A stretch of DNA of 39,975 bases from contig CAIVPR010000181.1 of NCBI GenBank assembly GCA_903907865.1, positions 1 to 39,975 of the forward strand, in the 5' to 3' direction. How positions within the stretch are numbered: the first letter of the stretch is position 1; every line of letters begins with the position of its first letter. The stretch is from an uncultured Acidobacteriia bacterium (GTDB lineage: Bacteria > Acidobacteriota > Terriglobia > Bryobacterales > Bryobacteraceae). The position numbers and the translations under genes are program-made. A model generated the notes under the pieces. The model saw only the letters and a program-made list of their open reading frames with translations, was not told the DNA's origin and searched no databases. This document shows, piece after piece, positions 1,494 to 39,316 of this stretch.

Positions 1494-1503
1494 GCTCGAT
1501 CCC

Positions 1504-2040
1504 TTACTTCCGCAGATCCTCCACCGTAACCTCTTTCTCCATACCCGTCGCGACAAACTTCAGGTATCCCACAATGTCAGCCAGTTCCTGCTGAGCGTAG
1601 CCGGTCATGGCGGGCGGATGTTGCCAAGCCCCGTTGGGCCGGGTGCCTGCCACGCTGCTGTCCTTCCACTTCGTCAACCGGGGAGGGTTCTGGCTCAGAT
1701 CCCAGAACTCGACCATTCCGTTATCCTTGCGTTTCTGGATGCCCGGGAACGTCAGGCCGTTGGAAAGTTTCACCTCCTGCACGTAGACCGTCGTGTTCAT
1801 GTGGATCGTCATGACCAAGGCACGTGGCGTGAAGCTTGAGGCGAGATGGCGCAGGTCGGGTCCGATGGCGTTGCCGAACCCTTCCATGCTGTGGCAGGTT
1901 GCGCAGGCCAGTCCTTTGGCCGAGCGCTGGAACAGCTGTCGCCCTTGTTTGACCTGGGCCGTGGTCTCCGGCAGTTCGGCGGCTCGTGCCAAGCCTGGTG
2001 CCAACAGCGCTATGACAACTACAATAAGGACCCGTTTCAT
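1504..2040 (-). CDS. secreted mono-haem c-type cytochrome
   Basis: A 178-residue protein starting MKRVLIVVVIALLAPGLARA, a clear signal peptide. A single haem-attachment site CATCH follows in the GLACATCHSMEGFGNAIGPDL context, and a likely axial Met sits in the late PPAMTGY segment before a terminal helix. It is a class I periplasmic cytochrome c, of the sort seen beside dehydrogenases or as a small electron carrier. The start at 2040 is chosen because GGAGG lies just upstream on the minus strand and it yields a clean signal peptide. It is transcribed divergently from the isomerase-like gene at 2129. Confidence 0.85.
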   Translation of the reverse strand: MKRVLIVVVIALLAPGLARAAELPETTAQVKQGRQLFQRSAKGLACATCHSMEGFGNAIGPDLRHLASSFTPRALVMTIHMNTTVYVQEVKLSNGLTFPGIQKRKDNGMVEFWDLSQNPPRLTKWKDSSVAGTRPNGAWQHPPAMTGYAQQELADIVGYLKFVATGMEKEVTVEDLRK

Positions 2041-2114
2041 AGGGAACCTCCACTCCCAGTCCCAGCACGCGGAGTGCCAAGCACACCAATCGTGTATCGC
2101 CGCCATTTCCGCGA

Positions 2115-2120
2115 TAGACT
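2115..2120 (+). promoter_or_regulatory. TAGACT -10-like hexamer before the isomerase-like gene
   Basis: TAGACT ends 8 bases before the ATG at 2129 and there is no Shine-Dalgarno, so transcription would start almost at the start codon. It belongs to the recurring set described in the findings. Confidence 0.35.
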
Positions 2121-2128
2121 GGATGGCG

Positions 2129-3019: not shown

Positions 3020-4212
3020 TTTCCGCGCCGCATCGGCTGGAGTCGGCCGTAGGTGGCGGAGCGCCATGCCCATTCGAAGGGTCCGAATTGGTATCGCTCC
3101 AGCCACCACGCGCTGAACCACAACTGTGCGCCGTATAGGGTGACGCCGAGGGCCGTCGCGGTGGCCGGGTCCAGTCTGCCAAAGAGTTGGAACCCATACC
3201 CGTAAAAGAGCGCGCCGAATATCAGCGATTGTGTCAGGTAGTTCGTGAGGGCCATGCGTCCGGCCGCGGCGACTGCGGAAGGCAGTGCAGTCAGACGATC
3301 CGGTCGCCGCCAAGCCAGCAACGTCGAGGCGTATGCGAATGCCAGAGGCACGTCGCCACCGAGCCTTCCGAGAAGTGGCAACTGGTGTATCGCAATGCCG
3401 GCCTTTGCCAGAACATCCGGCGTTGTGTTGAGAAGCCCGACCACGGCGCAAACTGCACAGCACTTCCACAGCGCGGCCCGGTATCGACCAGCGTGTTCGA
3501 CCACCCCGGCGCGCCACAGCGCGGCTCCGACCAGCATCAGGCCCCAAACCTGTTGGGCCGACGCCACTAGCAAGGGTAGAATCCAGCCCTGCGTTTCGTG
3601 CCACCGATAGCGCACCAAGGTGGTGAAATTGGCGGTGGCGTAGATCCGGGTCGCTTCGGCAACATGGTCCGGCCATGCGTTGGCGGGTGGCAGCAAGTCC
3701 CATCCGCCGAGAAGGGAAGGCCCGAATATGGCCGCAAGGCCTGCGGTGGCCAGTGCGGGGGCCGGAAGTCGCAACAGCGGAATCACGCAGAGCCCGCACA
3801 CCGCGTACAGCATCAGGATGTCCACGTTCGAGACGAGAACCATGTGGCAGGTCCCGACCAGCAGTAGGACAAGAAACCGCCGGACGAGAAATATCTCGGG
3901 GAGGCGCTTCCGCGACAAAGCGCGTTCCGCTTGGATCGCCGTGCCGATGCCGAAGGTCAGGGCGAACAGATCGAACGCCTTGAACTCCACGAATTCCTTC
4001 GCGAAGAGGTCGATGGCTTGGTTCAACATGCCCGCGTGCGAGTGGAATTTCAGGATGTGGCCGAACAGGTGCAGCCGGAAGAAGTAGAGCAGGTTGATCA
4101 GCAGGACGCCGAACAGGGCGAAACCCCGCACAAGATCCAAGACCTGATGCCGTTCTGCGACTGCGACGGGGTGCCACACGGGGCATGGATGGATTCCGTC
4201 TGCAGTCGCCAT
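3016..4212 (-). CDS. DUF418 domain membrane protein (YeiB-like)
   Basis: A 398-residue polytopic inner-membrane protein. It begins with a cytoplasmic leader, then VLDLVRGFALFGVLLINLL, the typical first helix of YeiB/DUF418 proteins, which often begins near DxxRGFAxxGI. About ten hydrophobic helices follow. The C-terminal part contains GRMALTNYLTQSLI and FGPFEWAWRSATYG, both classic DUF418 motifs. Function is not established for the family; it is related to acyltransferase-3-like membrane proteins. AAGGTAGG lies before the start codon. It sits 23 bases from the Old Yellow Enzyme stop on the same strand, so both could be read from one transcript. Confidence 0.85.
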   Translation of the reverse strand: MATADGIHPCPVWHPVAVAERHQVLDLVRGFALFGVLLINLLYFFRLHLFGHILKFHSHAGMLNQAIDLFAKEFVEFKAFDLFALTFGIGTAIQAERALSRKRLPEIFLVRRFLVLLLVGTCHMVLVSNVDILMLYAVCGLCVIPLLRLPAPALATAGLAAIFGPSLLGGWDLLPPANAWPDHVAEATRIYATANFTTLVRYRWHETQGWILPLLVASAQQVWGLMLVGAALWRAGVVEHAGRYRAALWKCCAVCAVVGLLNTTPDVLAKAGIAIHQLPLLGRLGGDVPLAFAYASTLLAWRRPDRLTALPSAVAAAGRMALTNYLTQSLIFGALFYGYGFQLFGRLDPATATALGVTLYGAQLWFSAWWLERYQFGPFEWAWRSATYGRLQPMRRGN

Positions 4213-4235
4213 TGAGGGCCTACCTTGTAGGGAGT

Positions 4236-5288
4236 CTATCCCAACGTCGGGTAGTCGGTGTAGCCGACTGGGCCGGGCGTGTAGAACGTGTTGCGGTCGG
4301 CCTCGGCGAGCGGGGCGTCGAGTTCGAAGCGCTTCACCAGGTCGGGATTGGCGATGTAGGGTGTGCCGAAGACGATGGCATCCGCAGCGCCCGATTCCAA
4401 GGCCGCGTTGCCGGTGGCCTTTTGAAAGCCGCCACCGACCAGGAAGGTTCCGTCGAAGGCTTCGCGGAGGGCGGTTTCCGCTCCAATTCCCGCGCGCATC
4501 ACATGCAGGTAGGCCGGTTTCAACGGCGAAATCGCCTTGGCCAGCGCGACAAATGTGGGGATGGGGTCGGCATCGTCGATGTCGTTGAACTTCATGCCCG
4601 GGCTGACCTTGATCCCGACCTTGCCGGACGATCCGGCCGCCTCGATCATCGCGGCCAAGGTTTCCACCACAAAGCGTATGCGGTTCTCGATGGAGCCGCC
4701 GTATTCGTCTGTGCGGTGGTTAGCGCCGGGGCTCAAGAACTGGTTGGGCAGGTAGCCCGACGCGGAGTGCAGTTCCACGCCGTCGAACCCAGCAGCGAGC
4801 GCGTTGCGGGTGGCAGCGGCGTACTCGGCGATCACGGACGGTATTTCGGAAAGTTCGAGCGCCCGGGGAGTGTCGTTGGGTTGCATGCCGAGGGAGTCGG
4901 TCCACATCATGCCTGCGGCAGGAATCGCCGAGGGAGCGACCGGGGCATCGGGAATGGTGCGGTTGGCGGAGTGCGCGATGCGGCCGACGTGCATGATTTG
5001 TAGGAAGATCCGGCCCCCGCGGGCGTGGACGGCGTCCGTAACCTCGCGCCAAGCGGCGATCTGGCCTTCAGTGTAGATACCGGGAGTCCGGGCGTAACCG
5101 ATGCCCATGGCGCTGGGTGCGGTGCCTTCGGTAAGGATGAGGCCCGCGTCGGCGCGCTGGCCGTAGTATTCGGCGGTCAGCGCGGATAGGACGCCCTCGG
5201 CGTTGGCTCGGGAGCGGGTCATCGGGGCCATCACGATGCGGTTGCGGAGGGTGTAGTCACCCAGGGTTATCGGGGAGAACAGGTTCAT
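4236..5288 (-). CDS. Old Yellow Enzyme family alkene reductase (NemA-like)
   Basis: A 350-residue FMN-dependent NAD(P)H:alkene oxidoreductase. Visible family features are MNLFSPITLGDYTLRNRIVM at the start, MAPMTRSRAN (FMN-binding Thr), LQIMHVGR, the substrate-binding block HSASGYLPNQFLSP, and YGGSIENRIRF. In characterised class I enzymes the substrate pair is His-His or His-Asn; here it is His174 with Ser177, while the proton-donor Tyr179 is kept. The start at 5288 removes a 27-residue Pro-rich extension that has no family counterpart. The gene is divergent from the blaI-type regulator, so the intervening operator could affect it. Confidence 0.9.
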   Translation of the reverse strand: MNLFSPITLGDYTLRNRIVMAPMTRSRANAEGVLSALTAEYYGQRADAGLILTEGTAPSAMGIGYARTPGIYTEGQIAAWREVTDAVHARGGRIFLQIMHVGRIAHSANRTIPDAPVAPSAIPAAGMMWTDSLGMQPNDTPRALELSEIPSVIAEYAAATRNALAAGFDGVELHSASGYLPNQFLSPGANHRTDEYGGSIENRIRFVVETLAAMIEAAGSSGKVGIKVSPGMKFNDIDDADPIPTFVALAKAISPLKPAYLHVMRAGIGAETALREAFDGTFLVGGGFQKATGNAALESGAADAIVFGTPYIANPDLVKRFELDAPLAEADRNTFYTPGPVGYTDYPTLG

Positions 5289-5353
5289 GCGTATGTGTGG
5301 ATGCTTTGGGGGCGGTTTGGGGTTCAGCAGACGACTCGGGTTTAGGATTCCGC

Positions 5354-5382
5354 TTGACTCCCGTTCCATGGCATGCTAGATT
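5354..5382 (+). promoter_or_regulatory. sigma-70-type promoter of the blaI-M56 operon
   Basis: TTGACT (5354-5359), a 17-base spacer and TAGATT (5377-5382). The -10 lies inside the inverted repeat at 5373-5390, so repressor binding would block RNA polymerase. The predicted start falls within about 3 bases of the GTG start codon at 5392, implying a leaderless or nearly leaderless message. Confidence 0.6.
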
Positions 5383-5390
5383 TCTAGCAT
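5373..5390. promoter_or_regulatory. BlaI/MecI-type operator (perfect inverted repeat)
   Basis: ATGCTAGA-TT-TCTAGCAT is a perfect dyad with 8-base arms and a 2-base centre. A further half-site, GTGCTAGA, follows at 5392-5399 and overlaps the regulator's own start codon. BlaI/MecI-family dimers bind such dyads. The position over the -10 element argues for autorepression. It also lies 85 bases upstream of the divergent reductase gene, which could share the control. Confidence 0.65.
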
Positions 5391-5391
5391 A

Positions 5392-5784
5392 GTGCTAGAA
5401 AACCAGCATTCGTTGTCGAGGCGCGAACGGCAGATCATGGAGATCCTGATTGCCCGCACATGTGCCTCGGTCGCCGAAGTACAGGCCGCGATGCCCGACC
5501 CTCCTAGCTATTCCGCGGTCCGGGCCACGCTGAGGATCATGGAGGAGAAGGGGCATGTGGTGCACAAGCAGGACGGCGCAACCTATGTATACTCTCCGGT
5601 GACGGAGCCGGTGCGGGCGCGGCAGTCGGCGTTGCGGCACTTGATTGACACGCTTTTCTCGGGCTCCACGGAACAGGCTGTCGCGGCTCTGCTGGACGGT
5701 CACACCACACCTGTAGAACTCGACCGGATCGCCGACATGATCGACCAGGCCCGGCATGCGGCCAAGCACAAGGAGGTTCGATGA
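5392..5784 (+). CDS. blaI: BlaI/MecI/CopY family transcriptional repressor
   Basis: A 130-residue winged-helix repressor. LSRRERQIMEIL opens helix 1. VAEVQAAMPDP and SYSAVRATLRIMEEKGHV form the recognition helix-turn-helix. TYVYSPV is the wing, and the C-terminal helices end in a Leu/Asp-rich dimerisation tail. In this family the repressor is inactivated by the partner M56 metallopeptidase, which is encoded next with an ATGA overlap (5781-5784). Start codon GTG at 5392; translation from it gives the usual few residues before LSRRE. It is most probably autoregulated through the overlapping dyad. The symbol denotes family, not antibiotic resistance. Confidence 0.88.
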   Translation: MLENQHSLSRRERQIMEILIARTCASVAEVQAAMPDPPSYSAVRATLRIMEEKGHVVHKQDGATYVYSPVTEPVRARQSALRHLIDTLFSGSTEQAVAALLDGHTTPVELDRIADMIDQARHAAKHKEVR

Positions 5785-7319
5785 TATCCGCACTGGTTGC
5801 CTCGAGTGTTCCCCTGCTCCTTGCCTGGGGCTTGGTGCGGGTGATGCGAGACCGGTCCGCCGCCGAGCGCCACGCCGTGTGGGCTGTGGCACTTCTACTG
5901 GCGAGTGTCGTCCCGGCGCTTCGTTGGTCCTTTGTCGGACGTGTGATGCCGACCCCTACGCTCGTCGTGGATATGCCCGTTTCGGTCGTCCGGGCCGTCG
6001 CTAGCAACGTCGAAAGACCGGCGCGCCGTACGCCAATGCCCTTCGTGGATCCGGCGGAACTGGTCTGGCCACTGGGATCGGCTCTATTGTTGGTCTGGCT
6101 GGTGGTCGGGAGGGCTCGGCTTAGTCGGGTCGTCCGGCGCGCCCGGCCCATGTCGCGCGTGGCTGGTGTCGAGATTGCAATCAGCGCCGACGTCCGTGGT
6201 CCCGTACTTGCGGGAGTCCTACGGCCCGTAATCTTGCTCCCCGAGGGGTCTGAGCATTGGACGCCAGGGCGTAGGCGGGCGGTGCTTGCGCACGAGTTGG
6301 CGCATGTGCGTCGGCGCGATCCGGTGGTTCTTGCACTAGGACAATGCGCCGGAGCCGTCTTCTGGTTTCACCCGCTCTTCCATTTGGCCCTGCGCTATTT
6401 GCGTACCGAAAGCGAACAGGCCTGCGACGATGCCGCGCTACGGCTCGGAATCACTTCAACGGACTATGCCGGGCACCTGCTCGCCTTGGCCCGAGGCTTC
6501 CACCACCAACCCGCCATCGCTATGGCGGCGACCACCAAACTGGAGTCACGCGTGCAATCCATACTCAATCCGAATTCGCTCCGCAATGCCGCCAGCCGCC
6601 GAACCTGGCTGGCTCTGGCCGCTTCCGCCTTGCTCGTGGCAGGCCCTCTCGCCACAATCCAGCTCCAAGCCCAGGCACCCGCTGGCCGGGGCGACATCGT
6701 GGGAACGGTCATCGATCCAACCGGTGCATTCGTCCCTGGAGCCTCAATCTCGGGCACCAACCTCGATGGGAGCAATAGGGAGGTCACGACCGCCAATTCG
6801 GCGGGAGCCTTCGCGTTCCGCGATATTCCTGCCGGACGGTATGTGCTGGAAGTCGCCCAGCCAGGATTCACCAGGCAACGGCGCGAGGTAGTGCTAACCG
6901 GTGGAGCCGCGGCGCAGGCCGCCCTGAGACTGGAAGTCGGCGCGATCACCGAGAGGGTGCGTGTGACCGCGCAAGGAACGCCGAAACCCAAAGCAGCGGA
7001 GCAATCGGCATCCGGACCGCCCGTCCGAATGCGCATTGGCGGCAACGTGCAGGCGGCCAAATTGGTCAAGCAGGCGCGCCCGGTCTATCCGCCAGATCTC
7101 CGGGACCAAGGCACGGAAGGCGTGGTGCTCTTGGAAGCCATCGTGTCGAAGGAGGGCGAACCGATTTCCCTGCGCGTGCTGAATGCCAATGTGAACCCCC
7201 TGTTTGGGGCGGCGGCCACGGACGCGGTCAAGCAGTGGCGCTACACGCCGACCCTCCTGAATGGCGAGCCGGTCGAGGTTGTGACGCGGATTGATATTGA
7301 GTTCAAGCTGCAACCCTAA
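5781..7319 (+). CDS. BlaR1-like M56 metallopeptidase fused to CarboxypepD_reg and TonB C-terminal domains
   Basis: A 512-residue multidomain protein. N-terminal hydrophobic helices come first. The M56 zinc-peptidase domain has HELAH at residues 171-175 and the downstream ESEQACDDAALRLG segment that supplies the third ligand. A membrane helix (LALAASALLVAGPLATIQL) follows near residues 275-295. The exported part has a carboxypeptidase-regulatory-like beta-sandwich (GDIVGTVIDPTGAFVPGA, roughly 310-400) and then a TonB C-terminal domain (ARPVYPPDLRDQGTEGVVLL to the end). M56 domains sense periplasmic signals and cleave the cognate BlaI repressor. The penicillin-binding sensor of true BlaR1 is absent, so the signal is unlikely to be a beta-lactam. 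It is coupled to blaI by ATGA. Confidence 0.86.
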   Translation: MISALVASSVPLLLAWGLVRVMRDRSAAERHAVWAVALLLASVVPALRWSFVGRVMPTPTLVVDMPVSVVRAVASNVERPARRTPMPFVDPAELVWPLGSALLLVWLVVGRARLSRVVRRARPMSRVAGVEIAISADVRGPVLAGVLRPVILLPEGSEHWTPGRRRAVLAHELAHVRRRDPVVLALGQCAGAVFWFHPLFHLALRYLRTESEQACDDAALRLGITSTDYAGHLLALARGFHHQPAIAMAATTKLESRVQSILNPNSLRNAASRRTWLALAASALLVAGPLATIQLQAQAPAGRGDIVGTVIDPTGAFVPGASISGTNLDGSNREVTTANSAGAFAFRDIPAGRYVLEVAQPGFTRQRREVVLTGGAAAQAALRLEVGAITERVRVTAQGTPKPKAAEQSASGPPVRMRIGGNVQAAKLVKQARPVYPPDLRDQGTEGVVLLEAIVSKEGEPISLRVLNANVNPLFGAAATDAVKQWRYTPTLLNGEPVEVVTRIDIEFKLQP

Positions 7320-7409
7320 GGACTGGGCATCCAGGCGGCCACGTCGCGGGAATGCTTCCGCCACCCCACCACAACCGCTAGTAGCCCACGGAAACACCAC
7401 ACACCATCC

Positions 7410-7430
7410 AGTGGTCATGCCACTTTACTT
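7410..7430 (+). terminator. weak intrinsic terminator after the M56 gene
   Basis: AGTGG-TCATG-CCACT forms a 5-bp hairpin (7410-7424), followed by TTACTTTT. The stem is short, so this is a tentative call. Confidence 0.3.
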
Positions 7431-7452
7431 TTGCCTCCCGCCTCGCTATTAT
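7424..7452 (+). promoter_or_regulatory. sigma-70-type promoter for smc
   Basis: TTTACT (7424-7429), a 17-base spacer and TATTAT (7447-7452) lie 38 bases ahead of the smc start codon. Spacing is canonical and each hexamer matches consensus at 4 or more positions. Confidence 0.55.
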
Positions 7453-7490
7453 GGTTGAGCCTCCCCCGGCAAACTCAAGGCGGTTCCGCT

Positions 7491-10400
7491 GTGCTGAAGT
7501 TGAAGAAGGTAGAGCTCCAGGGATTCAAATCGTTCTGTGACAAGACGGAATTGAAGTTCAACGGTGGCGGGATTGCCGCCGTTGTGGGACCGAACGGATG
7601 CGGGAAGTCCAACCTGAGCGACGCCATCAGTTGGGTGCTGGGCGAGCAGTCGGCTCGCAGTCTGCGCGGCGCGCGCATGGAGGACGTGATCTTTGCGGGC
7701 ACCAAGGCCCGCAAGCCCGTCGGCATGGCATCGGTGACGATGGTACTGGTCGACCCGATCGCGCAACAGGCTCCGCTCCTCGCTGCGGCAGACGCGCTTG
7801 CTGCTGCGCAAGTGGCCCCGACCGATGGCGATAGCGAGCTCCCTTCCGATGCCGCGGCGGCCGCCTCGGGTGGTGGTGCCCAACATCCCAAAGTCCAAGA
7901 AATCCCCCTCAACCCCAATGCCAAGCCGGGTGAAATCACCATCACCCGCCGTTTGTTCAGATCCGGCGAATCCGAATACCTGATCGACGGTCGCCAGGCG
8001 CGTCTCCGCGACATTCAGGACATCTTCATGGGCTCCGGCCTCGGGCCCGAGAGCTACGCCATCATCGAGCAGGGGCGCATTGGCCAGATCCTGTCGTCGA
8101 AACCTCAGGACCGGCGCAGTGTCATCGAGGAAGCCGCCGGCATTACCAAGTACAAAAACCGCCGCCGCCTCGCCGAGGCCAAGCTCGAAAGCTCCAAGCA
8201 GAACCTGTCGCGCGTCTTCGACATCCTCGAAGAAGTCACCCGCCATGTCAACTCCCTCAAGCGCCAGGCAGCCAAATCCAAGCGCTACCAGGAACTGAAG
8301 GCCGAACTCGACAGCCAGCTACGCACAGTGCTCGCTGGGCGCTTCAGCATTCTCAGCGGCGAGGCCACCCGCGCCGCTGCCCTGCTCGAAGCCGCCACCA
8401 CGGAATTGAACGACGCCTCCGTGCAGGCCGCCGACCGCGATGCCGAACTGCAGAAGTCGCAGGAGGTCTTCTACGCTCTTGAGGCGCAGTTGACCGAATC
8501 GCGCAAGCAGTTGGCCGCGATGAACGTGGAGGCCACGCGCACCAAGGGACGGCTGGAATCTCAGGTCCGCGAGGCCGCGTCTTTCGAGCAGCGCATGGGC
8601 CGCGCCGAACAGGAGACGGCGGATCTGGAAACCCGGCTGGCGCAGAACGAGTCCGAGCGGTCCGGATTGGCGCAATCGGTGGCGGCGGTGGAGAAGGAAA
8701 TGCAGGAGGCTCGCGCCGGGCTCACCGCCAAGAACCAGCTCCGGGACCAGGTGGTTTCGCGCGTTCGCGAGGCCGAGCGGACCATCGAGGCGTCGCGGTC
8801 GGTGATCCTGCGCCTGTTGGGCGAGGCTTCCACCATCCGCAACCAAGTCGCACAGGCCGACACGTACCTCGCGGGCCTCGACCGCGAGCGCGCCCGTGTC
8901 CGGAAGGACGAGGAAACCGCGACTGCCGACGCCGAGCGCCTAACCGGCGTCAAGAAGCAGTTGACCGAAACCATCGCCCAGCGGCAGGAGGAGATCCGGG
9001 CCCTGACCGCGCAGCGTCGCGGCACGGACACGGAGATCGCCGCCGGACGCACGGAGCTTTCGCAGGTCCGGCAACAGATCGACCAGTTGCGGGGGGAGGT
9101 TTCGCGCCTCCGCGCCAAACGCGAATCGCTGGACAACATCCTCTCGCACCACAGCTACACCAACGAATCCACCCGCAAGTTGTTGACCGCGTTGGAGAAT
9201 GGCCGCGCCGGGCAGTTCAAGCCGTCGGGCGTGCTGGCCGATTTCCTCGAGGTCTCAGACCCTGCTTGGGAACGCGCCGTGGAAGAATTCCTCCACGAGG
9301 AGCTGGAGTTCGTCGTCGTGAAGGACTGGACGCAGGCGGAACGCGGCATGTCCCTGCTGCGCACGGAACTCGAGGGCCGCGCCACCTTCCTTGTGGACAA
9401 CGGTACGGCCCACCCCGCTACCGCGACCGCCGTCTCCGATCTGCCCCGCCTTTCCGACTTGGTCAAATTCAGCGGCGGACTATCCACCGCCCTGTTGCCG
9501 CGCCTCGCCCATTGCTATCTGGCGTCATCCGCCGAGCAGGCGCGAAGCACTGCCGAGTCCCATCCAGATGCTTGGATCCTCGTTGCCGACGGCCAGTGCT
9601 ACCACGGCCGCATGCTGACCGGCGGGCGCAAGAAGTCCAGCGGTCCGCTTGTCCTGAAGCGCGAAATGCGCGAGTTCGAGACCCAGCTAAAGACGGCGGA
9701 ACAAAAGCTAGCCGCGAAATCGGGCGAGCAGGACGCCGTCCAGAAGCGCATCACCGCTCTGGAGCAGGGGTTGGAGGGCCTCCGTCAGACGCAGCAATCG
9801 AAGGAAAAGGAAGCGGTTGCTCTCGACCACGACCTCCGCCGCGCGGGCGAGGAACTCAACCGCGCCAATTCGCGCATCTCCGTGTCGCGCCAGGAGTTGG
9901 AGAGGTTGAAGCGCGAGGAGGAACGCGCGCACGAAAAGCGCGCCCAGAACCAGACGCTGGCCGAGCAGAAGGATCAGGAGCGCCACACCCGCGAGCAGTC
10001 GCTGGAAGCCCTCCGCGAACAGCTGGAGTCGGCGCAGGTCGAATCGCAAAAGATCGGCGAGGAGCATTCCATCCTGCGGGCGAAGCTGGCGGGCATGGAG
10101 GAGCGCCACCGCGGCGAACGCGGTGCACTGGGCCGTTTGGAGAACCAAGGGCGCGAAATGTCCCAGCGCCGCCAGTTGATCTCCACCGAAATGCAGCGCT
10201 GGGGCGAGAACCGGTCCCGCATCCTGAGCGAGAACATCGGCCTCGACCAGAAGTTGACCGAGTTGACCGAACAGATCGCCTTGGGCGACCGCGCCGTGCT
10301 CGAAATGACCGAACAGGAGTCGGGGCAGCGCGAGGCGCTTGCCGCCTTGGGCGAGACCCTGCGCGGGCTGCGCGTCCGGATCGAGGCAGGCCACAAGCGT

Positions 10401-11201
10401 TCAACCGAGATCGAGGTAGAGCTGACCCGGCTGCAATCGGAGTTGCGTTTCCTCGACGAGACCAGCCAGAAGGAACTGGCCCTGCCGGTGGCCGAGTTGG
10501 AGGTCCCCGAGGACTGCGCCGTCCCCGTCCTTATGGCGGCGGAGAAGGCGTGCAAGGAGACCCGGTCGAAGATCGAGGGCCTCGGGGCCGTCAATCCGAC
10601 CGCCTACGAGGAGTACCTCGAAGCCTTCCAGCGACAGGAGTTCCTCACCGCGCAACGGCAGGATCTGATTGATTCGATCCGCGATACGGAGCGGGCGATC
10701 AAGGAAATCGATGAGTTCTCGAAGGCGCGCTTCTCGGAGGCCTTCAAGGTCATCAACGAAAACTTCAAGCAGTGCTTCCAGACGCTGTTCGGCGGCGGCG
10801 CGGGCGAAATGCGCCTCACCGACGAGGACAATGTCAACGAGTGCGGCATCGACATCATCGCCTCGCCCCCAGGCAAGAAGCTGCAGAACGTGCTGCTGCT
10901 TTCCGGCGGCGAGAAGGCGCTGACGGCGTTGAGCCTCCTGATGGCGATCTTCAAATACCAGCCGAGCCCGTTCTGCGTGCTGGACGAGGTCGACGCGCCG
11001 CTGGACGAGGCGAATATTGGACGGCTGACCCGCCTGCTCGCGGAAATGGCAACCGACACCCAGTTCATCGTGATTACGCACTCCAAGAAGACGATGGAGT
11101 CGGCGCAGGCGATGTACGGAGTGACGATGCAGGAGCAAGGGGTGTCGAAGCTGGTGAGCGTGCGCTTCGAGCACCGGGAACGGGCGGGGGCTGCCGCGTA
11201 G
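7491..11201 (+). CDS. smc: chromosome segregation ATPase SMC
   Basis: A 1236-residue condensin ATPase. The N-terminal head has KKVELQGFKSF and Walker A GPNGCGKS near residues 32-40. Two long Glu/Arg/Gln-rich coiled coils (about 190-520 and 700-1040) flank a hinge (from about GVLADFLEVSDPAWERAVEE to the Gly-rich MLTGGRKKSSG). The C-terminal head has ABC signature LLSGGEKALTALSLL and Walker B FCVLDEVDAPLD. GTG at 7491 is chosen because MLKLKKVELQG is the canonical start and AAGGCGG sits just upstream. An odd low-complexity insert lies near residues 87-147. scpA/scpB are not beside it. Confidence 0.96.
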   Translation: MLKLKKVELQGFKSFCDKTELKFNGGGIAAVVGPNGCGKSNLSDAISWVLGEQSARSLRGARMEDVIFAGTKARKPVGMASVTMVLVDPIAQQAPLLAAADALAAAQVAPTDGDSELPSDAAAAASGGGAQHPKVQEIPLNPNAKPGEITITRRLFRSGESEYLIDGRQARLRDIQDIFMGSGLGPESYAIIEQGRIGQILSSKPQDRRSVIEEAAGITKYKNRRRLAEAKLESSKQNLSRVFDILEEVTRHVNSLKRQAAKSKRYQELKAELDSQLRTVLAGRFSILSGEATRAAALLEAATTELNDASVQAADRDAELQKSQEVFYALEAQLTESRKQLAAMNVEATRTKGRLESQVREAASFEQRMGRAEQETADLETRLAQNESERSGLAQSVAAVEKEMQEARAGLTAKNQLRDQVVSRVREAERTIEASRSVILRLLGEASTIRNQVAQADTYLAGLDRERARVRKDEETATADAERLTGVKKQLTETIAQRQEEIRALTAQRRGTDTEIAAGRTELSQVRQQIDQLRGEVSRLRAKRESLDNILSHHSYTNESTRKLLTALENGRAGQFKPSGVLADFLEVSDPAWERAVEEFLHEELEFVVVKDWTQAERGMSLLRTELEGRATFLVDNGTAHPATATAVSDLPRLSDLVKFSGGLSTALLPRLAHCYLASSAEQARSTAESHPDAWILVADGQCYHGRMLTGGRKKSSGPLVLKREMREFETQLKTAEQKLAAKSGEQDAVQKRITALEQGLEGLRQTQQSKEKEAVALDHDLRRAGEELNRANSRISVSRQELERLKREEERAHEKRAQNQTLAEQKDQERHTREQSLEALREQLESAQVESQKIGEEHSILRAKLAGMEERHRGERGALGRLENQGREMSQRRQLISTEMQRWGENRSRILSENIGLDQKLTELTEQIALGDRAVLEMTEQESGQREALAALGETLRGLRVRIEAGHKRSTEIEVELTRLQSELRFLDETSQKELALPVAELEVPEDCAVPVLMAAEKACKETRSKIEGLGAVNPTAYEEYLEAFQRQEFLTAQRQDLIDSIRDTERAIKEIDEFSKARFSEAFKVINENFKQCFQTLFGGGAGEMRLTDEDNVNECGIDIIASPPGKKLQNVLLLSGGEKALTALSLLMAIFKYQPSPFCVLDEVDAPLDEANIGRLTRLLAEMATDTQFIVITHSKKTMESAQAMYGVTMQEQGVSKLVSVRFEHRERAGAAA

Positions 11202-11211
11202 GGGTGTCGTC

Positions 11212-12081
11212 ATGCCGGACTACGACGCCGCGCTCAAACTTCTGCTGAAGGACGCACGTGGACATGCCATGGAGTACCTGACCGGGCGCAGGGTCAAGGA
11301 ATGGCTGGACACAGAGCTGCCCCCGTCCGCCAGCCGCCGGGCCGACTTGGTGTGCGCCGCATGGGACGACTCGGTCGGGCACGTCGAACTCCAGAGCCGC
11401 AACGACTCGGATATGGACATCCGGATGTACCAGTACGGCGGCCGAATCCACGAACACTACCGGGTCTACCCGTGGCAGTTGGTCCTGTATGTGGGCGAGG
11501 CTCCGATGTCGATGCCGACCCGCATCAGAGGGCCTTTCCTGGACTACTACTTCCAACTGGTGGATTTCCGCGACCTGGACGGCGAACCGATGCTGGAGAG
11601 CGCCGCGCTGAGCGATAATATTCTTGCGGTGCTGATGCGTCTGCGCGACCAGCGCCAAGCCGTGAGGGAAATCGTCCACCGGATTGCAAAGTCGGATGCG
11701 GGGCGGGTGGTCGCGATGGACCACTTGGCAACACTGGCCGGACTTCGGAGGATTTCAGGAATCGTTGAAGAGGAGGGAAGCAAAGTGCCGATTACGGAAA
11801 GCATCCTGGAGCATGAATTGTTTGGCCCGCTGATTCGGAGAGGTGTCGACGAGGGTGTGCTCATCGGTCGGCAAGAGGGTCGGCAGGAAGGTCGGCAAGA
11901 GGGTCGGCAGGAAGGCGTCTTGAACGAAGCCTTTGCGATGGCTAGGCGTGTTGTTGTGGCTAGGTTCGGTCCGGCCACCCCTTGGCTGGACGAACAACTC
12001 CGTAACAAGTCTGCCCGGCAGCTCGAGGATCTGGTGGACCGCTCGTTCCAAGTCGGCACCATCGACGAACTCTTCCGCTAG
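11212..12081 (+). CDS. Rpn/YhgA-like PD-(D/E)XK nuclease-family protein with DUF4351 tail
   Basis: A 289-residue protein. The N-terminal part resembles recombination-promoting nucleases and putative transposases of the PD-(D/E)XK fold: RRADLV supplies the Asp and GHVELQSRND the E-x-Q pair. A domesticated-transposase region follows, with YQYGGRIHEHYRVYPWQLVLYVG. A hinge of four GRQEG repeats (DNA 11866-11913) comes next, and a C-terminal DUF4351-like helix bundle (RRVVVARFGPATPWLDEQL ... LEDLVDR) ends the protein. These genes are mobile-DNA-associated and their cellular role is uncertain. It begins 10 bases after smc and may be co-transcribed; the association is probably accidental. Confidence 0.78.
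   Translation: MPDYDAALKLLLKDARGHAMEYLTGRRVKEWLDTELPPSASRRADLVCAAWDDSVGHVELQSRNDSDMDIRMYQYGGRIHEHYRVYPWQLVLYVGEAPMSMPTRIRGPFLDYYFQLVDFRDLDGEPMLESAALSDNILAVLMRLRDQRQAVREIVHRIAKSDAGRVVAMDHLATLAGLRRISGIVEEEGSKVPITESILEHELFGPLIRRGVDEGVLIGRQEGRQEGRQEGRQEGVLNEAFAMARRVVVARFGPATPWLDEQLRNKSARQLEDLVDRSFQVGTIDELFR
11866..11913 (+). repeat. four in-frame 12-bp tandem repeats (two 24-bp units)
   Basis: GGTCGGCAAGAG and GGTCGGCAGGAA alternate twice, giving two identical 24-bp units and encoding GRQEGRQEGRQEGRQEG. Because each unit is a multiple of three, copy-number change would alter linker length without shifting frame. Confidence 0.9.
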
Positions 12082-30293: not shown

Positions 30294-30382
30294 GGCGGAA
30301 TGGCGGAACTGGCAGACGCACCAGACTCAAAATCTGGCGTAGTTCACTCTACGTGTGGGTTCGACCCCCACTTCCGCCACCA
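30294..30382 (+). tRNA. tRNA-Leu(CAA)
   Basis: The acceptor arms GGCGGAA and TTCCGCC pair fully, with discriminator A and an encoded CCA. The anticodon stem CCAGA/TCTGG encloses the loop CTCAAAA, giving anticodon CAA (reads UUG). The long variable arm (GCGTAGTTCACTCTACGT) is that of a class II leucine tRNA. The T arm is GTGGG-TTCGACC-CCCAC. Confidence 0.96.
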
Positions 30383-30783: not shown

Positions 30784-31065
30784 ATGATTGTCGGAGGCAC
30801 CAGTTTGACTGTTCGCGACGTGATTTTGAGACAACTTGCCGCGGTCGTTGCGCAATCTTCGCCACTGCCGCTTCCTGAAGACGTATCCGATGAAACAATG
30901 TTGGACGAGTTCTGGCTTGACTCGTTGTCTTTCGCTCATTTGCTGGCGGGGATCGAGTCGGAGCTGAAATGTACGCCCCTGACATTTTTTGAGGGTGTTG
31001 GTTTTCCTCGCACGGTTGGAGAGTTGGTTGGCTGCTACCAGGACAAGACGCAGGTGGTCAGTTAA
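30784..31065 (+). CDS. free-standing acyl/peptidyl carrier protein
   Basis: A 93-residue protein with the carrier-protein fold. Helix 1 is VRDVILRQLAAVVAQ. The phosphopantetheine site is in EFWLDSLSFAHLL, where DSL gives Ser47 as the attachment residue. Helices TPLTFFEG and TVGELVGCY end the domain. FabD/FabH-type fatty-acid genes are absent and an adenylating enzyme follows, so this is a specialised carrier for secondary metabolism and not the fatty-acid ACP. It is the first gene of the operon, 17 bases before the halogenase. No Shine-Dalgarno is apparent. Confidence 0.87.
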   Translation: MIVGGTSLTVRDVILRQLAAVVAQSSPLPLPEDVSDETMLDEFWLDSLSFAHLLAGIESELKCTPLTFFEGVGFPRTVGELVGCYQDKTQVVS

Positions 31066-31082
31066 CGGGGAGGCTTTCCGCA

Positions 31083-32879
31083 ATGCATGGTGGTTTGGCA
31101 GCAGGAGTAGTCGTAGGCAACAGCGCTTGCGGGCATGAGCGAACCGAGTACGACTTGGCGATTTGTGGCGGTGGTTTGGCCGGATTGACGCTGGCGCGCC
31201 AAATCAAACTGCAACAACCGCATTGGTCCGTGGTGCTCATCGACTCAGCGGATCGGCCATTGATGGAGGCCGGGCATAAGGTCGGCGAGTCGACAGTGGA
31301 GTTGGGCGCCTATTACTTGGCTGAAAAACTGCAGTTAGCCGAGTACTTGAAAGAGCGTCACTTCGTTAAACTCGGGTTGCGGTATTTTTTTGGCGGCGGC
31401 CATGTTTCGCTTGCTGAACGCCCGGAAATGGGGCTGTCCAGCTTCCCGCCCTTCGATTCGTATCAGATTGATCGCGGAAGGCTGGAAAACGACCTGCGCG
31501 ATCTCATTGCGCAAAGTGGCGTGGTGCTGATCGAGGGGGCGAAAGTCGAACAGATCAGTCTGAGTGGAGATCTGTCTTTTCATGAAGTTCGGATTTCGGG
31601 GCGGATTCATGAAGGTGGAAATACCCTGCGGGCGCGGTGGGTTGTAGACGCCAGCGGGCGGCGCCGCTTTCTGCAAAAACAACTTGGGCTCACCAAGGAG
31701 AAGTCCACTTCGCGAGCCCGACAGTTTAGCTCAAGTTGGTTTCGCCTCCCAGGGCGAATCGATATTGACAACCTCGTGTCGACCGAAAAAGTCCCCTGGC
31801 ATGATCGGGTCCCACAGGGGCTCCGCTACTTTTCCACAACGCACCTGATGGGTGATGGCTACTGGGTGTGGCTGATCCCTCTTTCCTCGGACTATACTAG
31901 TGTCGGTATCGTAGCGAACGAGTTGCTCCATCCCTTTTCTTCCTTCAGCACTTACGCGCGTTCTCTGACATGGTTGGAGAGCCACGAGCCTGTCTTGGCT
32001 GCACATCTCGCCGGGCGCGAACCTCTGGATTTCAGAGTGATGCATGACTATAGCTACTCCTCCAAGCAGGTCTTTTCGCAAGAGCGCTGGGCATGCGTCG
32101 GCGATGCCGGGGTATTTGTAGATCCCTTCTATTCGCCGGGCACGAACATGATCGGCTTCGCGAACTCTATTGTGATCGACATGATGCGACTCGACTTCGC
32201 CGGAGAACTGACGTCGCAGCGGGTGGAGGATTACAACCGGTTCTTCCTCGGCATGAATGATTCGCTCACCGCGAACACTCAGTTGCCCTATCCCTTCCAC
32301 GGCCACGCCATGGTCATGGCTGCGAAGTTGATTTGGGATTTCTGCAATGCATGGGGCTTCTCCTGTCCGCAGATGTTTTACGGTACCTATCTCGATCCCT
32401 CCTTCTCTCAACATCTGCGCCAGACCACAGCCCGCTTGTTCTCCCTAATTCAAACCATGCAGCGGCTTTGGCTTGAATGGGCGGCTCTCTCGCCCAGCCG
32501 ACTGACCTACGACTTTTTTGATTACCTCCAATTAGACTTCCTAAGAGATATGCGATCGCGGAACCTGCAGTGCGCCAAGAGCCGGGAACAAGTGATCGCA
32601 GATCAAGCGGAAAACATGGAGCTTGTCGAACAGTTAGCTCAGGCGCTGTTCTTATTGGCCGTTGAAGATGTCTTGCCGGAACACTGGGATACTTTCAAGA
32701 CACTGCCTTGGCTGAATGCGTGGCGGATTGGCTTGAAACCGGAATCCTGGGAGAAGGATGGTTTGTTCCGACCCGTCTCGCCGCCTGCCGATTCGCGGCG
32801 TATCTATCGGGAGTTGCGCCGGTGCTTCGGCGTGCGCGATTCACCTTGCACCGAAGATCGGGGGATTGACCTCTCATGA
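31083..32879 (+). CDS. flavin-dependent halogenase
   Basis: A 598-residue FAD-binding enzyme. The FAD-binding GGGLAG sits at residues 29-34, HKVGEST at about 65-71, and GDAGVFVDPFYSPGTNM at 340-355. The signature WxWxIP of flavin-dependent halogenases is present as WVWLIP at 261-266, which separates it from ordinary monooxygenases. A C-terminal helical extension (about 370-598) is long, as in halogenases that act on carrier-bound substrates. It would need a flavin reductase, which is not encoded here. GGGGAGG precedes the ATG. It overlaps the ligase by ATGA (32876-32879). Confidence 0.85.
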   Translation: MHGGLAAGVVVGNSACGHERTEYDLAICGGGLAGLTLARQIKLQQPHWSVVLIDSADRPLMEAGHKVGESTVELGAYYLAEKLQLAEYLKERHFVKLGLRYFFGGGHVSLAERPEMGLSSFPPFDSYQIDRGRLENDLRDLIAQSGVVLIEGAKVEQISLSGDLSFHEVRISGRIHEGGNTLRARWVVDASGRRRFLQKQLGLTKEKSTSRARQFSSSWFRLPGRIDIDNLVSTEKVPWHDRVPQGLRYFSTTHLMGDGYWVWLIPLSSDYTSVGIVANELLHPFSSFSTYARSLTWLESHEPVLAAHLAGREPLDFRVMHDYSYSSKQVFSQERWACVGDAGVFVDPFYSPGTNMIGFANSIVIDMMRLDFAGELTSQRVEDYNRFFLGMNDSLTANTQLPYPFHGHAMVMAAKLIWDFCNAWGFSCPQMFYGTYLDPSFSQHLRQTTARLFSLIQTMQRLWLEWAALSPSRLTYDFFDYLQLDFLRDMRSRNLQCAKSREQVIADQAENMELVEQLAQALFLLAVEDVLPEHWDTFKTLPWLNAWRIGLKPESWEKDGLFRPVSPPADSRRIYRELRRCFGVRDSPCTEDRGIDLS

Positions 32880-34411
32880 CGGCCGCGGATGTTCCCATTG
32901 CTTACAACGCGGTTGACCTGTTGGAGCGGAACCTGCAGGCCAGTTCCGACAAAGTGGCGCTCCTCAGCCATTCCCGGTGCCTTACCTTCCACGAAGTGGC
33001 CAGTGAAGCGAACCAGGTTGGCAATGGACTGCTTGAACTGGGCGTGCGCTTTGGCGACTGTGTCGGTATTCTTGCGCCGGATAGCGCCGATTGGGTGACC
33101 TCCTTCTTTGGCGTCATCAAGATCGGCGCAGTCGCAGTCTGCTTGAGCACATTGCTGCGAACGGAGGAGTGCGCCTATATCGTCCGTGATAGTCGGATGG
33201 CTGTGTTGATTGTCGACCAAAGCTTACTGCCGATCATCGAGCTGCTTCGCCCCTTGCTTCAACGTGTTGTGGTAATTGGCGATTCGGAGCATCCTGCGGA
33301 TCTTGCATTTGCACAGTGGCTTGCCTTGCAATCCAAGCAACTGGACCGTGCGCCAACCCATAGGGACGATTTTTGTTCCCTGCATTATTCAAGCGGCACG
33401 ACGGGTCAGCCAAAGGGCATGTTTCACGCACACAAGGATTATGTTCTGGTTGCCCAGAACACTGGCGTCAATCTTTTTGGGCTCACTGAAGGGGACCGTA
33501 CCTTTTCCGTGGCAAAGCTGTTCTTCGTTTACGGGCTAGGTGGGAACTTGGTCCAGCCTTGGTATGTGGGCGCGAGCATCGTTCTTTATTCCGGCTCGCC
33601 CCGCCTGGCTGCAGACGTACTGCAGACAATAGAACAGTTTAAGCCAACTGTGCTTTTTAGTGTTCCCACCGCGTATTCCACCAAACTGGCGTTCCTCGAA
33701 GGCGCCAATCGTTATGATCTTAGTAGCCTCCGCATGTGCGTTTCGGCCGGAGAGACCTTGCCGGAGGCAGTCTGGCGGCACTGGCGGACGCGAACCGGCC
33801 TCGAGATCCTGGACACATTGGGATGCACGGAATCGTTTCACACGGTTATCGCCAACCGCCCCGACGATTTGTGCCCGGGTAGTAGCGGCAAACCGTCGCC
33901 GGGTTACGCGGCACGTGTCGTGGATGACGCCGGGCGGGACGTGCCGACGGGTGAGATCGGCAATCTGCTGATCAGAGGTGAGTCGACGGCTCTCTTTTAT
34001 CTGCATCAGTATGAGAAGAGCAGACAGACCTTTCAAGGCGAATGGCTCGCCACAGGCGATAAATATTACGTGGATGACGATGGCTTCTACTGGCATGCCG
34101 GGCGAAGCGATGACATGTTCAAGGTCGGCGGACTGTGGGTGTCGCCGGTTGAAGTGGAAGGCGTCCTCGCCTGTCACCCGGCGGTGCTGGAGTGCGCCGT
34201 CGTTGGCCTTCCGGATGCCCAGGAGATGGTCAGACCAAAGGCCTTCGTTCATCTCCGCGACGGCCAAACGCCCGGTCCTGCCCTGTTGCGAGACCTGCTC
34301 CGGCATTGTGGTGAGAAGCTGGCTCCCTACAAGTGCCCTAGATGGGTCGATTTTGTTCCGGAGTTGCCGAGAACGGTCACTGGGAAGATTCAACGGTACA
34401 AATTGCGCTGA
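32876..34411 (+). CDS. benzoate-CoA-ligase-like adenylate-forming enzyme
   Basis: A 511-residue ANL-superfamily enzyme. The phosphate loop YSSGTTGQPKG is at residues 171-181. Other family blocks are LGCTESFHTV (A5-type), LATGDKYYVDDDGFYWHAGR (A7/A8) and RTVTGKIQR with the catalytic Lys504. The closest recognisable family is benzoate/aryl-CoA ligases (MFHAHKDY and VGGLWVSPVEVEGVL are typical). In this operon it most likely activates an aromatic or similar acid and loads it on the adjacent carrier or CoA. Coupled to the halogenase by ATGA. Substrate cannot be fixed from the sequence. Confidence 0.88.
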   Translation: MTAADVPIAYNAVDLLERNLQASSDKVALLSHSRCLTFHEVASEANQVGNGLLELGVRFGDCVGILAPDSADWVTSFFGVIKIGAVAVCLSTLLRTEECAYIVRDSRMAVLIVDQSLLPIIELLRPLLQRVVVIGDSEHPADLAFAQWLALQSKQLDRAPTHRDDFCSLHYSSGTTGQPKGMFHAHKDYVLVAQNTGVNLFGLTEGDRTFSVAKLFFVYGLGGNLVQPWYVGASIVLYSGSPRLAADVLQTIEQFKPTVLFSVPTAYSTKLAFLEGANRYDLSSLRMCVSAGETLPEAVWRHWRTRTGLEILDTLGCTESFHTVIANRPDDLCPGSSGKPSPGYAARVVDDAGRDVPTGEIGNLLIRGESTALFYLHQYEKSRQTFQGEWLATGDKYYVDDDGFYWHAGRSDDMFKVGGLWVSPVEVEGVLACHPAVLECAVVGLPDAQEMVRPKAFVHLRDGQTPGPALLRDLLRHCGEKLAPYKCPRWVDFVPELPRTVTGKIQRYKLR

Positions 34412-34462
34412 AGAAAGGTAGCTGCCAAGGAGAGACGTCCTGGGCGCGTGGGGAAAACATAT

Positions 34463-35314
34463 ATGTCAGCATCGCAGGCCGCGCGGCCTTTTGCCGGGGC
34501 GGAGCACCGAATGCCGAGTTGTCTCGGCACACCGCGAGAACTCGAGATAGTGTTGAACGGACCGATTGGCCCACAGCGTTTACACGATGACACGGTTGTG
34601 GTCGACGAGGGCGGCTGGTATCGAACGATCACTCCATCGTCATCGTGGCCCGGGGCCAATGAGATTCTCTTCTCGAACTTGAATATGCGCGATCCAGAGG
34701 GAGAGATCGACGCGATCATTGGCGAGTACCATGGGTTGGGGCTTCCACTCACATGGTGTGTTTATCCTTGGACCCAACCGAGCGACCTTGGGAATCGGCT
34801 TCTGGCGCGCGGTGCGACGCAATCGGTTGTATTGGGAGTTCTCGGCAGCGCCTCGTTCCCGTTGGAACTAGTCCGTGGCGTGGAGGTGACGCGAGTCGAT
34901 CCCCGTTCCGAGGAAGAATATGAGTCCTATATCGGTCTGATGTCTGCGGGTTTCAACCTTCCCCCGGACGAGGTGGTCTTCAGACGACGCCGCTACCGCC
35001 AGTTGATCGACGGGCCAGACCCCTGCATGCACTTGCTTCTCGCTCGCTATAACCGAGAGGTTGCCGGCTGCTGCGCGATGGTCGTCAAGGAAGATTCCGC
35101 CCACATGACCGGTGTTTACGTTAAGCCGGAGTTTCAAGCCCGCGGTGTGTTCCCCTCACTTCGGGCAGCGGCCTTGAAGTACCTTCGCGGGATTGGCATC
35201 GATCTTGTCACGGGCCATGCGAATGAAAAGTCGGCCGTATGGGTGGAGCGGTTCGGGTCCAAGGTGATCTACTCATACAGGATCTATCAGCTTAGTCCGC
35301 CGTCGGTACCGTGA
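34463..35314 (+). CDS. GNAT-family N-acyltransferase
   Basis: A 283-residue protein. An N-terminal half of unclear fold (from MSASQAARPF through WCVYPWTQPSD) precedes a GNAT domain. Acyl-CoA-binding motif A is visible as TGVYVKPEFQARGVFPSLRA, followed by HANEKSAVWVERFGSKVIY (motif B). It may acylate an amine, with either CoA or the carrier as donor. ATG at 34463 is preferred because GGGGA stands 8 bases ahead; a GTG at 34448 is possible. It starts 51 bases after the ligase and ends the operon. Confidence 0.78.
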   Translation: MSASQAARPFAGAEHRMPSCLGTPRELEIVLNGPIGPQRLHDDTVVVDEGGWYRTITPSSSWPGANEILFSNLNMRDPEGEIDAIIGEYHGLGLPLTWCVYPWTQPSDLGNRLLARGATQSVVLGVLGSASFPLELVRGVEVTRVDPRSEEEYESYIGLMSAGFNLPPDEVVFRRRRYRQLIDGPDPCMHLLLARYNREVAGCCAMVVKEDSAHMTGVYVKPEFQARGVFPSLRAAALKYLRGIGIDLVTGHANEKSAVWVERFGSKVIYSYRIYQLSPPSVP

Positions 35315-38294: not shown

Positions 38295-38963
38295 CTAGGC
38301 GATCTTCTCGACCTGCAGGAAGTCCAGCTCCACGGGAGTCGCACGCCCGAAAATCGTGACCAGCACGCGGAGGGTGTTGCGCTCGGAATTGATTTCGTCC
38401 ACCTTGCCCTGGAAGTTGGAGAAGGGCCCGTCGATGATGCGGACGGGCTCGTTCTTCTCGAACGAGAGCTTCGGACGGGGCCTTTCGGCGGCCGTCGTTT
38501 GGCGGAACAACATCTTGTTGATTTCCTCTTCGGAGAGGGGAATCGGAACTTGGCCGCCGCCGACGAAACCGGTGACACGCGGGGTGTCCTTCACGCGGTG
38601 CCAAAGTTCGTCGTTGGTGGAGCCGTCGGCATTGCGCATCGCCATCTGGATGACGACGTAGCCGGGATAAAGCAGTCGGCGGCTGGTGACCTTCTTGCCG
38701 TTGCGGAGTTCGACTACTTCCTCTTCCGGGATCAGGATTTGTCCGATCTGGTCGCCGAAACCGAATGCGTCGGCACGGGTGCGAAGGGATTCGGCCACCT
38801 TGCGCTCAAAACCGGAATACGAGTGGATGATGTACCACTGCATATTGTCCTCGGGCTTGGGCGCATCGCCTGCTGCGTCCCCGAGTGCTGCAGCCTCTGC
38901 TTCGTCAGCAACGGTTCCGAGGGGTTCCTGGTCTTCGGGGGTAAGATTGTCGAGTTCCGTCAT
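38295..38963 (-). CDS. nusG: transcription termination/antitermination factor NusG
   Basis: A 222-residue protein. An acidic N-terminal extension of about 40 residues (rich in Glu/Asp/Ala/Pro) precedes the NGN domain ([20 protein letters not shown] ... [10 protein letters not shown]). The KOW domain follows near the end ([20 protein letters not shown]). NusG binds RNA polymerase and couples it to Rho or the ribosome. The start at 38963 has AGGA close upstream on the minus strand. It is 20 bases after secE. Confidence 0.96.
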
Positions 38964-38983
38964 GGATTCCTGCTTGGCGTCCC

Positions 38984-39214
38984 TTACTTGACCAGATACG
39001 TGTACGCGCGGGTGACAGTGTTCTCGATGATCTTGTCGAGGATTTGAAAGTACACGGCGAAGGCGAACACGCTGAGGATCACGACAAGGGTGGTCGATTC
39101 CACTTGGAGGCGGCTCGGCCACGTTACGCGCTTCATCTCGGAGCGGATGTCGATGAGGTATTCGCGGGTGCTCTCGACCCAGTTGGTTTTCTTGACTTCC
39201 AGTTCGGCCGCCAT
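38984..39214 (-). CDS. secE: preprotein translocase subunit SecE
   Basis: A 76-residue protein with the SecE core. ESTREYLIDIRSEMKRVTWPS is the conserved amphipathic helix and hinge, followed by one membrane helix (TTLVVILSVFAFAVYFQIL). It is the single-helix form usual outside enterobacteria, clamping SecY in the Sec channel. Located between tRNA-Trp and nusG, as in most bacteria. Confidence 0.95.
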   Translation of the reverse strand: MAAELEVKKTNWVESTREYLIDIRSEMKRVTWPSRLQVESTTLVVILSVFAFAVYFQILDKIIENTVTRAYTYLVK

Positions 39215-39316
39215 GTGTTGTGCTTCGCCTTTTCGTCGGACTAATACGGAACTTCAACAACCAAGTTGAGCAAGAGGCTCTCACTCTGGTTGAATACGGG
39301 ACTGTCTTCAGGGATT

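Follow-up and report, generated by a model that had tools for sequence, protein, structure and literature searches.

A carrier protein, halogenase, aryl acid ligase and GNAT gene set in an uncultured Acidobacteriia bacterium as a possible minimal halogenating amide pathway

The window analyzed here is the whole of one contig (G000:C181; 39,975 bases) from an uncultured Acidobacteriia bacterium whose 7.5 Mb genome is held in 186 contigs. Downstream of efp and a tRNA-Leu gene it carries a compact operon whose four predicted products, a candidate free carrier protein, a flavin-dependent halogenase, an aryl acid ligase and a GNAT acyltransferase, may together make up a small pathway to halogenated aromatic amides. 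The four genes are as follows:

30784..31065, plus strand: free carrier protein candidate, 93 amino acids; Ser47 in a DSL motif; PF00550 17.6 bits, Pfam cut-off 20.8
31083..32879, plus strand: flavin-dependent halogenase, 598 amino acids; Trp_halogenase PF04820 44.8 bits, cut-off 21; three flavin-dependent halogenase motifs
32876..34411, plus strand: aryl acid ligase, benzoate-coenzyme A (CoA) ligase family, 511 amino acids; TIGR02262 517 bits, cut-off 375
34463..35314, plus strand (open reading frame from GTG 34448, 288 amino acids): GNAT acyltransferase; Acetyltransf_1 PF00583 29.9 bits, cut-off 20.7

All four open reading frames (ORFs) described in the original prediction are present across 30784-35314, as is the ATGA at 32876-32879 through which the end of the halogenase gene overlaps the start of the ligase gene. 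The GNAT more likely starts at the ATG at 34463, which matches the start of its paralogue on contig C77 of the same genome. Judged from the sequences, family assignment is secure for three of the four genes, i.e., the halogenase, the ligase and the GNAT. The claim that the set lacks assembly-line partners also held, as phmmer found no homologue of a ketosynthase (KS), acyltransferase (AT), ketoreductase (KR), condensation (C) domain or thioesterase (TE) in the 40 kb window; the KS query, which matched 9 of 17 myxobacterial halogenase loci as a control, was of type I, and a FabH-like enzyme could slip past it. Ligase, carrier and GNAT occur in one operon with no adjoining C, KS or TE gene, the carrier candidate being divergent and below cut-off.

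The 93-residue protein is probably a divergent carrier protein. Its D46-S47-L48 lines up with the corresponding DS in 15 further free carriers, at the predicted position of the phosphopantetheine serine, and a hidden Markov model (HMM) built from 15 free carriers found at halogenase loci gives it 8.7 bits (E 0.14) against a maximum of 5.3 bits for 1000 shuffles of its own sequence. The serine in its DSL context, on which the carrier claim had been built, was thus found where expected, and the strength of that claim has to be lowered in view of the PF00550 score.

The halogenase contains GGGLAG at residue 29, WVWLIP at residues 261-266, as had been noted, and FVDPFYSPG at 345, matching the GxGxxG, WxWxIP and FxxPxxSxG motifs given for flavin-dependent halogenases, of which WxWxIP is said to hinder monooxygenation (PMC8407142). 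These motifs are held by 41, 33 and 40, respectively, of the 47 rows of our tree, and the exact WxWxIP is absent from the halogenase copies of C77 and of genome G006. Lys96, a candidate for the catalytic lysine, does not vary in alignments of 12 and of 24 rows, each with the window's own row counted; it lies over a lysine of CndH, yet over no lysine in the PltA alignment. The best matches in the PDB are PltA (68 bits) and CndH (PDB 3e1t, 63 bits), both of them variant B halogenases, which act on carrier-bound substrates (PMC8407142). Family and motifs are shared with the variant B enzymes (PltA, Mpy16 and CndH, with AerJ and McnD in the same review), but the similarity to PltA and CndH reaches only 63-68 bits, and in the tree the window halogenase groups instead with a plasmid-borne enzyme and with one linked to a nonribosomal peptide synthetase (NRPS). 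It is sister to a Gloeothece verrucosa plasmid halogenase (support 96/90), followed by the C77 halogenase (91/55), an NRPS-linked enzyme of its own genus (96/66) and, next, two rows from Planctomycetota (98/97). Several end branches in this part of the tree are long and drew a program warning, and AerJ and McnD are not among its rows. Adjoining genes of the relatives encode A-PCP and C-A-PCP proteins (adenylation domain, A; peptidyl carrier protein, PCP) at locus L061, and a polyketide synthase (PKS) and a C-A-PCP-TE protein at L062. Together with the operon itself, these relatives suggest that the window halogenase may depend on a carrier-bound substrate.

Surveying myxobacterial halogenase loci (20 fetched and 17 examined, the short L182, L183 and L186 being left out), we found a free acyl carrier protein (ACP)-like ORF within 1 kb in 8 loci; 9 loci have a KS, 3 have an AMP ligase and none has this GNAT. 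On these counts a ligase, a free ACP and a halogenase together are not rare, and the GNAT is the odd partner. Six Myxococcota loci (L170, L172, L173, L175, L176 and L177) hold paired halogenase-family genes arranged back to back on opposite strands; all six have a KS no more than 20 kb away, and four have a free ACP-like ORF. Seven mycobacterial members of the family (L018, L020, L022, L023, L024, L025 and L027), none with the exact WxWxIP, each precede an ORF that is roughly 5.5 kb long and contains a carrier-like domain.

The ligase, correctly described at the outset as benzoate-CoA-ligase-like, matches AMP-binding PF00501 at 272 bits (cut-off 29.9) in addition to its TIGR02262 score, and is 59% identical (305 of 514 positions) to the anthranilate-CoA ligase AuaEII (PDB 4wv3). 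Anthranilate in AuaEII is contacted by F220, T221, F222, A293, G318, C319, H324 and I325, with T221 binding the amino group (PMC11253843). The corresponding residues in the window ligase are F, V, Y, A, G, C, H and T, such that five of the eight are kept and T221 is replaced by V, F222 by Y and I325 by T. This comparison speaks against plain anthranilate or benzoate as the substrate, though anthranilate might still be accepted, since PqsA has a different mode of binding the amino group. Eight of the 15 ligase matches outside the genome were compared (L197, at 20% identity and out of frame, and L198, L201, L202, L203, L206 and L207 were left out); of these own-phylum homologues, the two that are 58% and 54% identical retain T221, and the six at 44-46% carry Ala there. 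The 58% homologue adjoins a kynureninase-like gene (TIGR01814 140 bits, cut-off 246) and the 54% homologue adjoins CoA-mutase, hydratase, CoA-transferase and thiolase genes, settings (L208 and L209) that suggest recruitment of the operon ligase from aromatic breakdown. By sequence comparison, the ligase is from a group that includes catabolic aryl-CoA ligases, and its predicted pocket fits neither AuaEII nor the usual benzoate pattern. The ligase search in Myxococcota returned 0 of 207 at E≤1e-150, a limit so strict that the result shows nothing.

The GNAT has its domain at residues 178-268. Across 396 genomes of the phylum, with at most six first-look candidates scored per genome, it occurs at E≤1e-15 only in its own genome, in two copies; none of its kind was found in 17 same-genus genomes (its own excluded), and it is present in 2 of 61 relatives when its own genome is counted. 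Related proteins are weakly present in 3 of the 19 genomes or records behind the compared loci, in 9 of 282 Myxococcota genomes at E≤1e-12 (best E 8.9e-52) and in one of 72,556 plasmid records (26% identity), and the 22 pattern matches from viral contigs contain no relative. A gene-neighborhood check on the halogenase and GNAT, which the original prediction had proposed, brought no second case outside the genome: none of 55 other halogenase loci of at least 7 kb contains this GNAT, and the halogenase is missing from all 12 GNAT loci (L136-L147), of which two span just 3-4 kb. Linkage in Myxococcota was considered and rejected, as the halogenase occurs in 42 of the 282 genomes (E≤1e-60) and coincides with the GNAT only in G657, G682 and G686, where the two genes are about 100 kb apart or on separate contigs. 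The Gloeothece sister halogenase (L080; NC_014533.1, 12090-18401) adjoins a GNAT, an HpaB-like monooxygenase, an ectoine synthase and a desaturase; that GNAT, rejected as a homologue, has its domain at residues 38-131 and no significant similarity to ours, making this another halogenase-GNAT neighborhood of separate origin.

Within its own genome the quartet does recur. The same four kinds of gene form a second set on contig C77, in a different order. The proposed refutation, that the four genes are conserved together in no other genome, is thus partly answered, as they were found together again inside this genome and in none other:

6958-18906 of L059 (G000:C77:14000-33999), minus strand: halogenase, ACP, ligase and GNAT, with extra genes

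Along this one strand the order is an amidinotransferase (best PDB match SxtG, 581 bits), a P-type ATPase-like ORF recognized by eye, a haem-oxygenase-like protein (DUF3865, below cut-off), the GNAT, a flavin adenine dinucleotide (FAD) oxidoreductase, the AMP ligase, the ACP (PF00550 23.0 bits, above the cut-off of 20.8), the halogenase, an SbnA-like pyridoxal phosphate (PLP) enzyme (TIGR03945 195 bits, cut-off 350) and a GHMP kinase with no PDB match. ORFs resembling P-type ATPases by eye flank the amidinotransferase on both sides. Identity between the two sets is 59% for the GNAT, 38% for the halogenase and 30% for the ligase, which belongs to another subfamily. The C77 GNAT lies 2.9 kb from the second close halogenase, and the chance of two such GNATs falling within 5 kb of two close halogenases is p ~4e-6 under uniform placement, a figure computed after the fact. 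Codon identity of the GNAT pair is 0.69, 0.77 and 0.40 at positions 1, 2 and 3, and 24 of 91 four-fold sites are alike, which argues that the pair is old and has been kept by selection on the protein. As in the window, phmmer searches of the five pieces spanning C77 turned up no homologue of a KS, AT, KR, C domain or TE. The C77 set thus has the same ACP, halogenase, AMP ligase and GNAT kinds as the window but its own gene order, a ligase of another subfamily, and the FAD oxidoreductase, haem-oxygenase-like protein, SbnA-like PLP enzyme, GHMP kinase and SxtG-like amidinotransferase in addition. Because it keeps a 59% identical GNAT beside a ligase of another subfamily, the GNAT does not appear to be tied to the window type of CoA ligase. 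An amino-acid partner could come from the action of its PLP enzyme, GHMP kinase and amidinotransferase, which would agree with an amine acceptor.

A third set on contig C169 (L060, G000:C169:1-12000, 247-11615, plus strand) comprises an adenylation enzyme, a PltA-like halogenase that is 26% identical to the window's and a carrier (PF00550 31.7 bits); an ORF resembling a methyltransferase and a type I PKS can also be recognized there by eye.

We tentatively propose, at a little less than an even chance, that the operon encodes a minimal halogenating amide pathway in which the ligase loads the carrier, the halogenase acts on the carrier-bound aryl group and the GNAT releases the amide. In the first step, the ligase would activate a benzoate- or aminobenzoate-type aryl acid with ATP, and the aryl group would pass to the phosphopantetheine of the free carrier, either directly or via CoA; the ligase family is seen in the sequence, and the substrate and the loading route are predictions. 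In the second step, the halogenase would add chlorine or bromine to the ring of the carrier-bound aryl group, presumably drawing its reduced flavin (FADH2) from a reductase encoded elsewhere. In the third step, the GNAT would pass the carrier-bound haloaryl group to an amine, releasing a halogenated aromatic amide. This last step is proposed because of the SbzL/SbzG/SbzI precedent, the lack of any other release gene on the contig and the C77 context.

In the pathway to SB-203208, SbzL charges SbzG or SbzK, from which the GNAT SbzI moves the acyl group to an amine in vitro; SbzB and SbzC follow the same carrier logic with transfer to a hydroxyl, and FeeM is cited as an earlier carrier-using GNAT (PMC6331615). 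Release by a GNAT is therefore not new in itself, being established for SbzI and SbzC. The Sbz systems (SB-203208, altemicidin) combine a free adenylate-forming ligase, a free carrier and a GNAT transferring from the carrier, as proposed here, and differ in a set of described steps with no halogenase and with aliphatic or amino-acid cargo; the likeness is drawn from descriptions. FeeM, an N-acyl amino acid synthase whose cargo is fatty-acyl, is likewise a GNAT-type enzyme passing its acyl group from carrier to amine, has no halogenase in its setting and is again likened by description. For EncN, an aryl or acyl group is stated to go directly onto an ACP, with no CoA step (PMC12664062). In the aurachin system of Stigmatella aurantiaca (AuaEII, AuaE and AuaB), whose ligase is the 59% identical enzyme, the aryl acid also ends on a free ACP (PMC10295502). 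It differs in CoA-to-ACP transfer by AuaE and extension by type II KSs; its gene table holds no halogenase, and three of the eight pocket residues differ. Pyoluteorin-type starter cassettes (PltA) hand on to a KS or PKS, whereas the window contig holds no KS homologue, though a distant KS elsewhere in the genome is conceivable.

Several observations weigh against our proposal. The carrier candidate, besides scoring under the Pfam cut-off, was missed by the leave-one-out HMM at E≤10, and its best PDB matches (E 0.19-1.2) mix carriers with unrelated proteins. The ligase belongs to a family that normally makes CoA thioesters, and its two nearest own-phylum homologues sit in the kynureninase-like and CoA-catabolic settings described above. 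No gene in the vicinity of the operon is recognizable as supplying an amine, a single genome is known to have the quartet, and a single-sequence structure model of the GNAT was set aside at a pLDDT (predicted local distance difference test) of 34, leaving no usable model. Most GNATs, moreover, accept CoA-linked substrates (PMC6331615), and AuaEII needs AuaE to pass its aryl group from CoA to the ACP (PMC10295502).

The last two of these points lend substance to an alternative that we regard as unlikely on balance, namely that the GNAT is not the releasing enzyme and instead charges the carrier with the CoA-bound aryl group, in the role of AuaE, or uses acetyl-CoA to acetylate an amine of the product or of a precursor, with release left to another enzyme or to hydrolysis. 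The ligase is closest to a CoA ligase that requires a separate CoA-to-ACP transferase, and none is seen in the operon. Set against this are the C77 set, in which the conserved GNAT accompanies a ligase only 30% identical and of another subfamily, and the proof of transfer from a carrier in two GNAT-carrier systems (PMC6331615). The operon could also supply a halogenated aryl starter to an assembly line elsewhere, in the manner of pyoluteorin, with the GNAT as a tailoring enzyme. Halogenation of carrier-bound starters is established (PMC8407142) and the genome has at least one PKS region, next to the A-halogenase-PCP set on C169, but that set owns its halogenase and carrier, and neither the window contig nor C77 carries a KS, AT, KR, C or TE homologue, making this explanation clearly improbable. 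We attach little likelihood to a halogenase that acts on a free aromatic compound (variant A) among loosely connected neighbors: the weak carrier match, the CtcP-type tetracycline halogenases among the PDB matches and the listing of CmlS as variant A (PMC8407142) speak for it, whereas an ACP and a ligase adjoin the halogenase in both own-genome sets and in 3 of 17 myxobacterial loci, and the top two PDB matches are variant B enzymes. A non-halogenating flavin monooxygenase or oxidase is very improbable, as WVWLIP and FxxPxxSxG are present and the best matches are halogenases, though there are weak matches to the GG-reductase, LodB and ubiquinone hydroxylase families and sequence cannot prove halogenation.

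The individual parts of the proposed amide pathway all have known relatives, and its ligase-carrier-GNAT logic is likewise known from the SB-203208 pathway, where a GNAT has been proven to transfer from carrier to amine; what is added here is the halogenase, and the combination looks new. In agreement with the original statement that this is not a recognized cluster, no description of the quartet was found among the titles, abstract openings and passages covered by a literature search that took in few subscription journals. A further reading, which we consider possible but doubtful, is that of a self-sufficient module that halogenates and amidates with no megasynthase, built at least twice in one genome around an exchangeable GNAT-carrier-halogenase core, with different ligases and different amine partners mounted on that core. 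If the proposed pathway is right, four small soluble enzymes would give halogenated aromatic amides without an NRPS or PKS, in a system that is easy to rebuild in the test tube and to recombine with another ligase or another amine, and aryl and halogenated groups would join the cargo of the few proven carrier-using GNATs. With its second set, the genome offers a natural experiment on which parts interchange.

The composition of the operon sets it apart from its surroundings. Its genes have a G+C content of 0.525, 0.556, 0.573 and 0.588, compared with 0.587 for efp, 0.639 for the metE-like gene and 0.616 for the contig, and kilobase windows give 0.55-0.59 at 30.5-35 kb, 0.57-0.68 at 28-31 kb and 0.58-0.64 at 35-39.5 kb. 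The low-GC patch reported earlier is real, though the contrast of 50-57% with 72% is overstated, the difference being about 5 points of G+C rather than 15-20. Third-position G+C (GC3) is 0.585, 0.648, 0.646 and 0.665 in the operon against 0.744-0.861 in six neighboring genes, the exception being a seventh neighbor, the over-long nusG ORF at 38295-39284 (0.652). The codon composition is thus odd, and, since GC3 drops and neither the GNAT nor a close halogenase (more than 40% identity) was found in the same-genus genomes, the operon was probably acquired. Weighing on the other side, the C77 cluster has a GC3 of 0.70-0.80 against 0.79-0.80 in two neighbors, a much weaker shift, such that joint acquisition of both sets is unsupported. 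A comparison meant to reveal an empty site brought none to light: the surroundings of efp differ in 12 genomes of the genus, as do those of the metE-like gene in 5 of 10 loci outside the genome, with no shared synteny; two of the efp loci (L125 and L126) covered only 1.9 and 0.4 kb downstream. Insertion of an island at tRNA-Leu was rejected, no repeat of the tRNA end being reported between 29.6 and 36.5 kb. This tRNA-Leu(CAA) gene lies at 30294-30382, immediately 5' of the operon, and in the 12 same-genus efp loci ARAGORN found just one tRNA, 5 kb away from efp.

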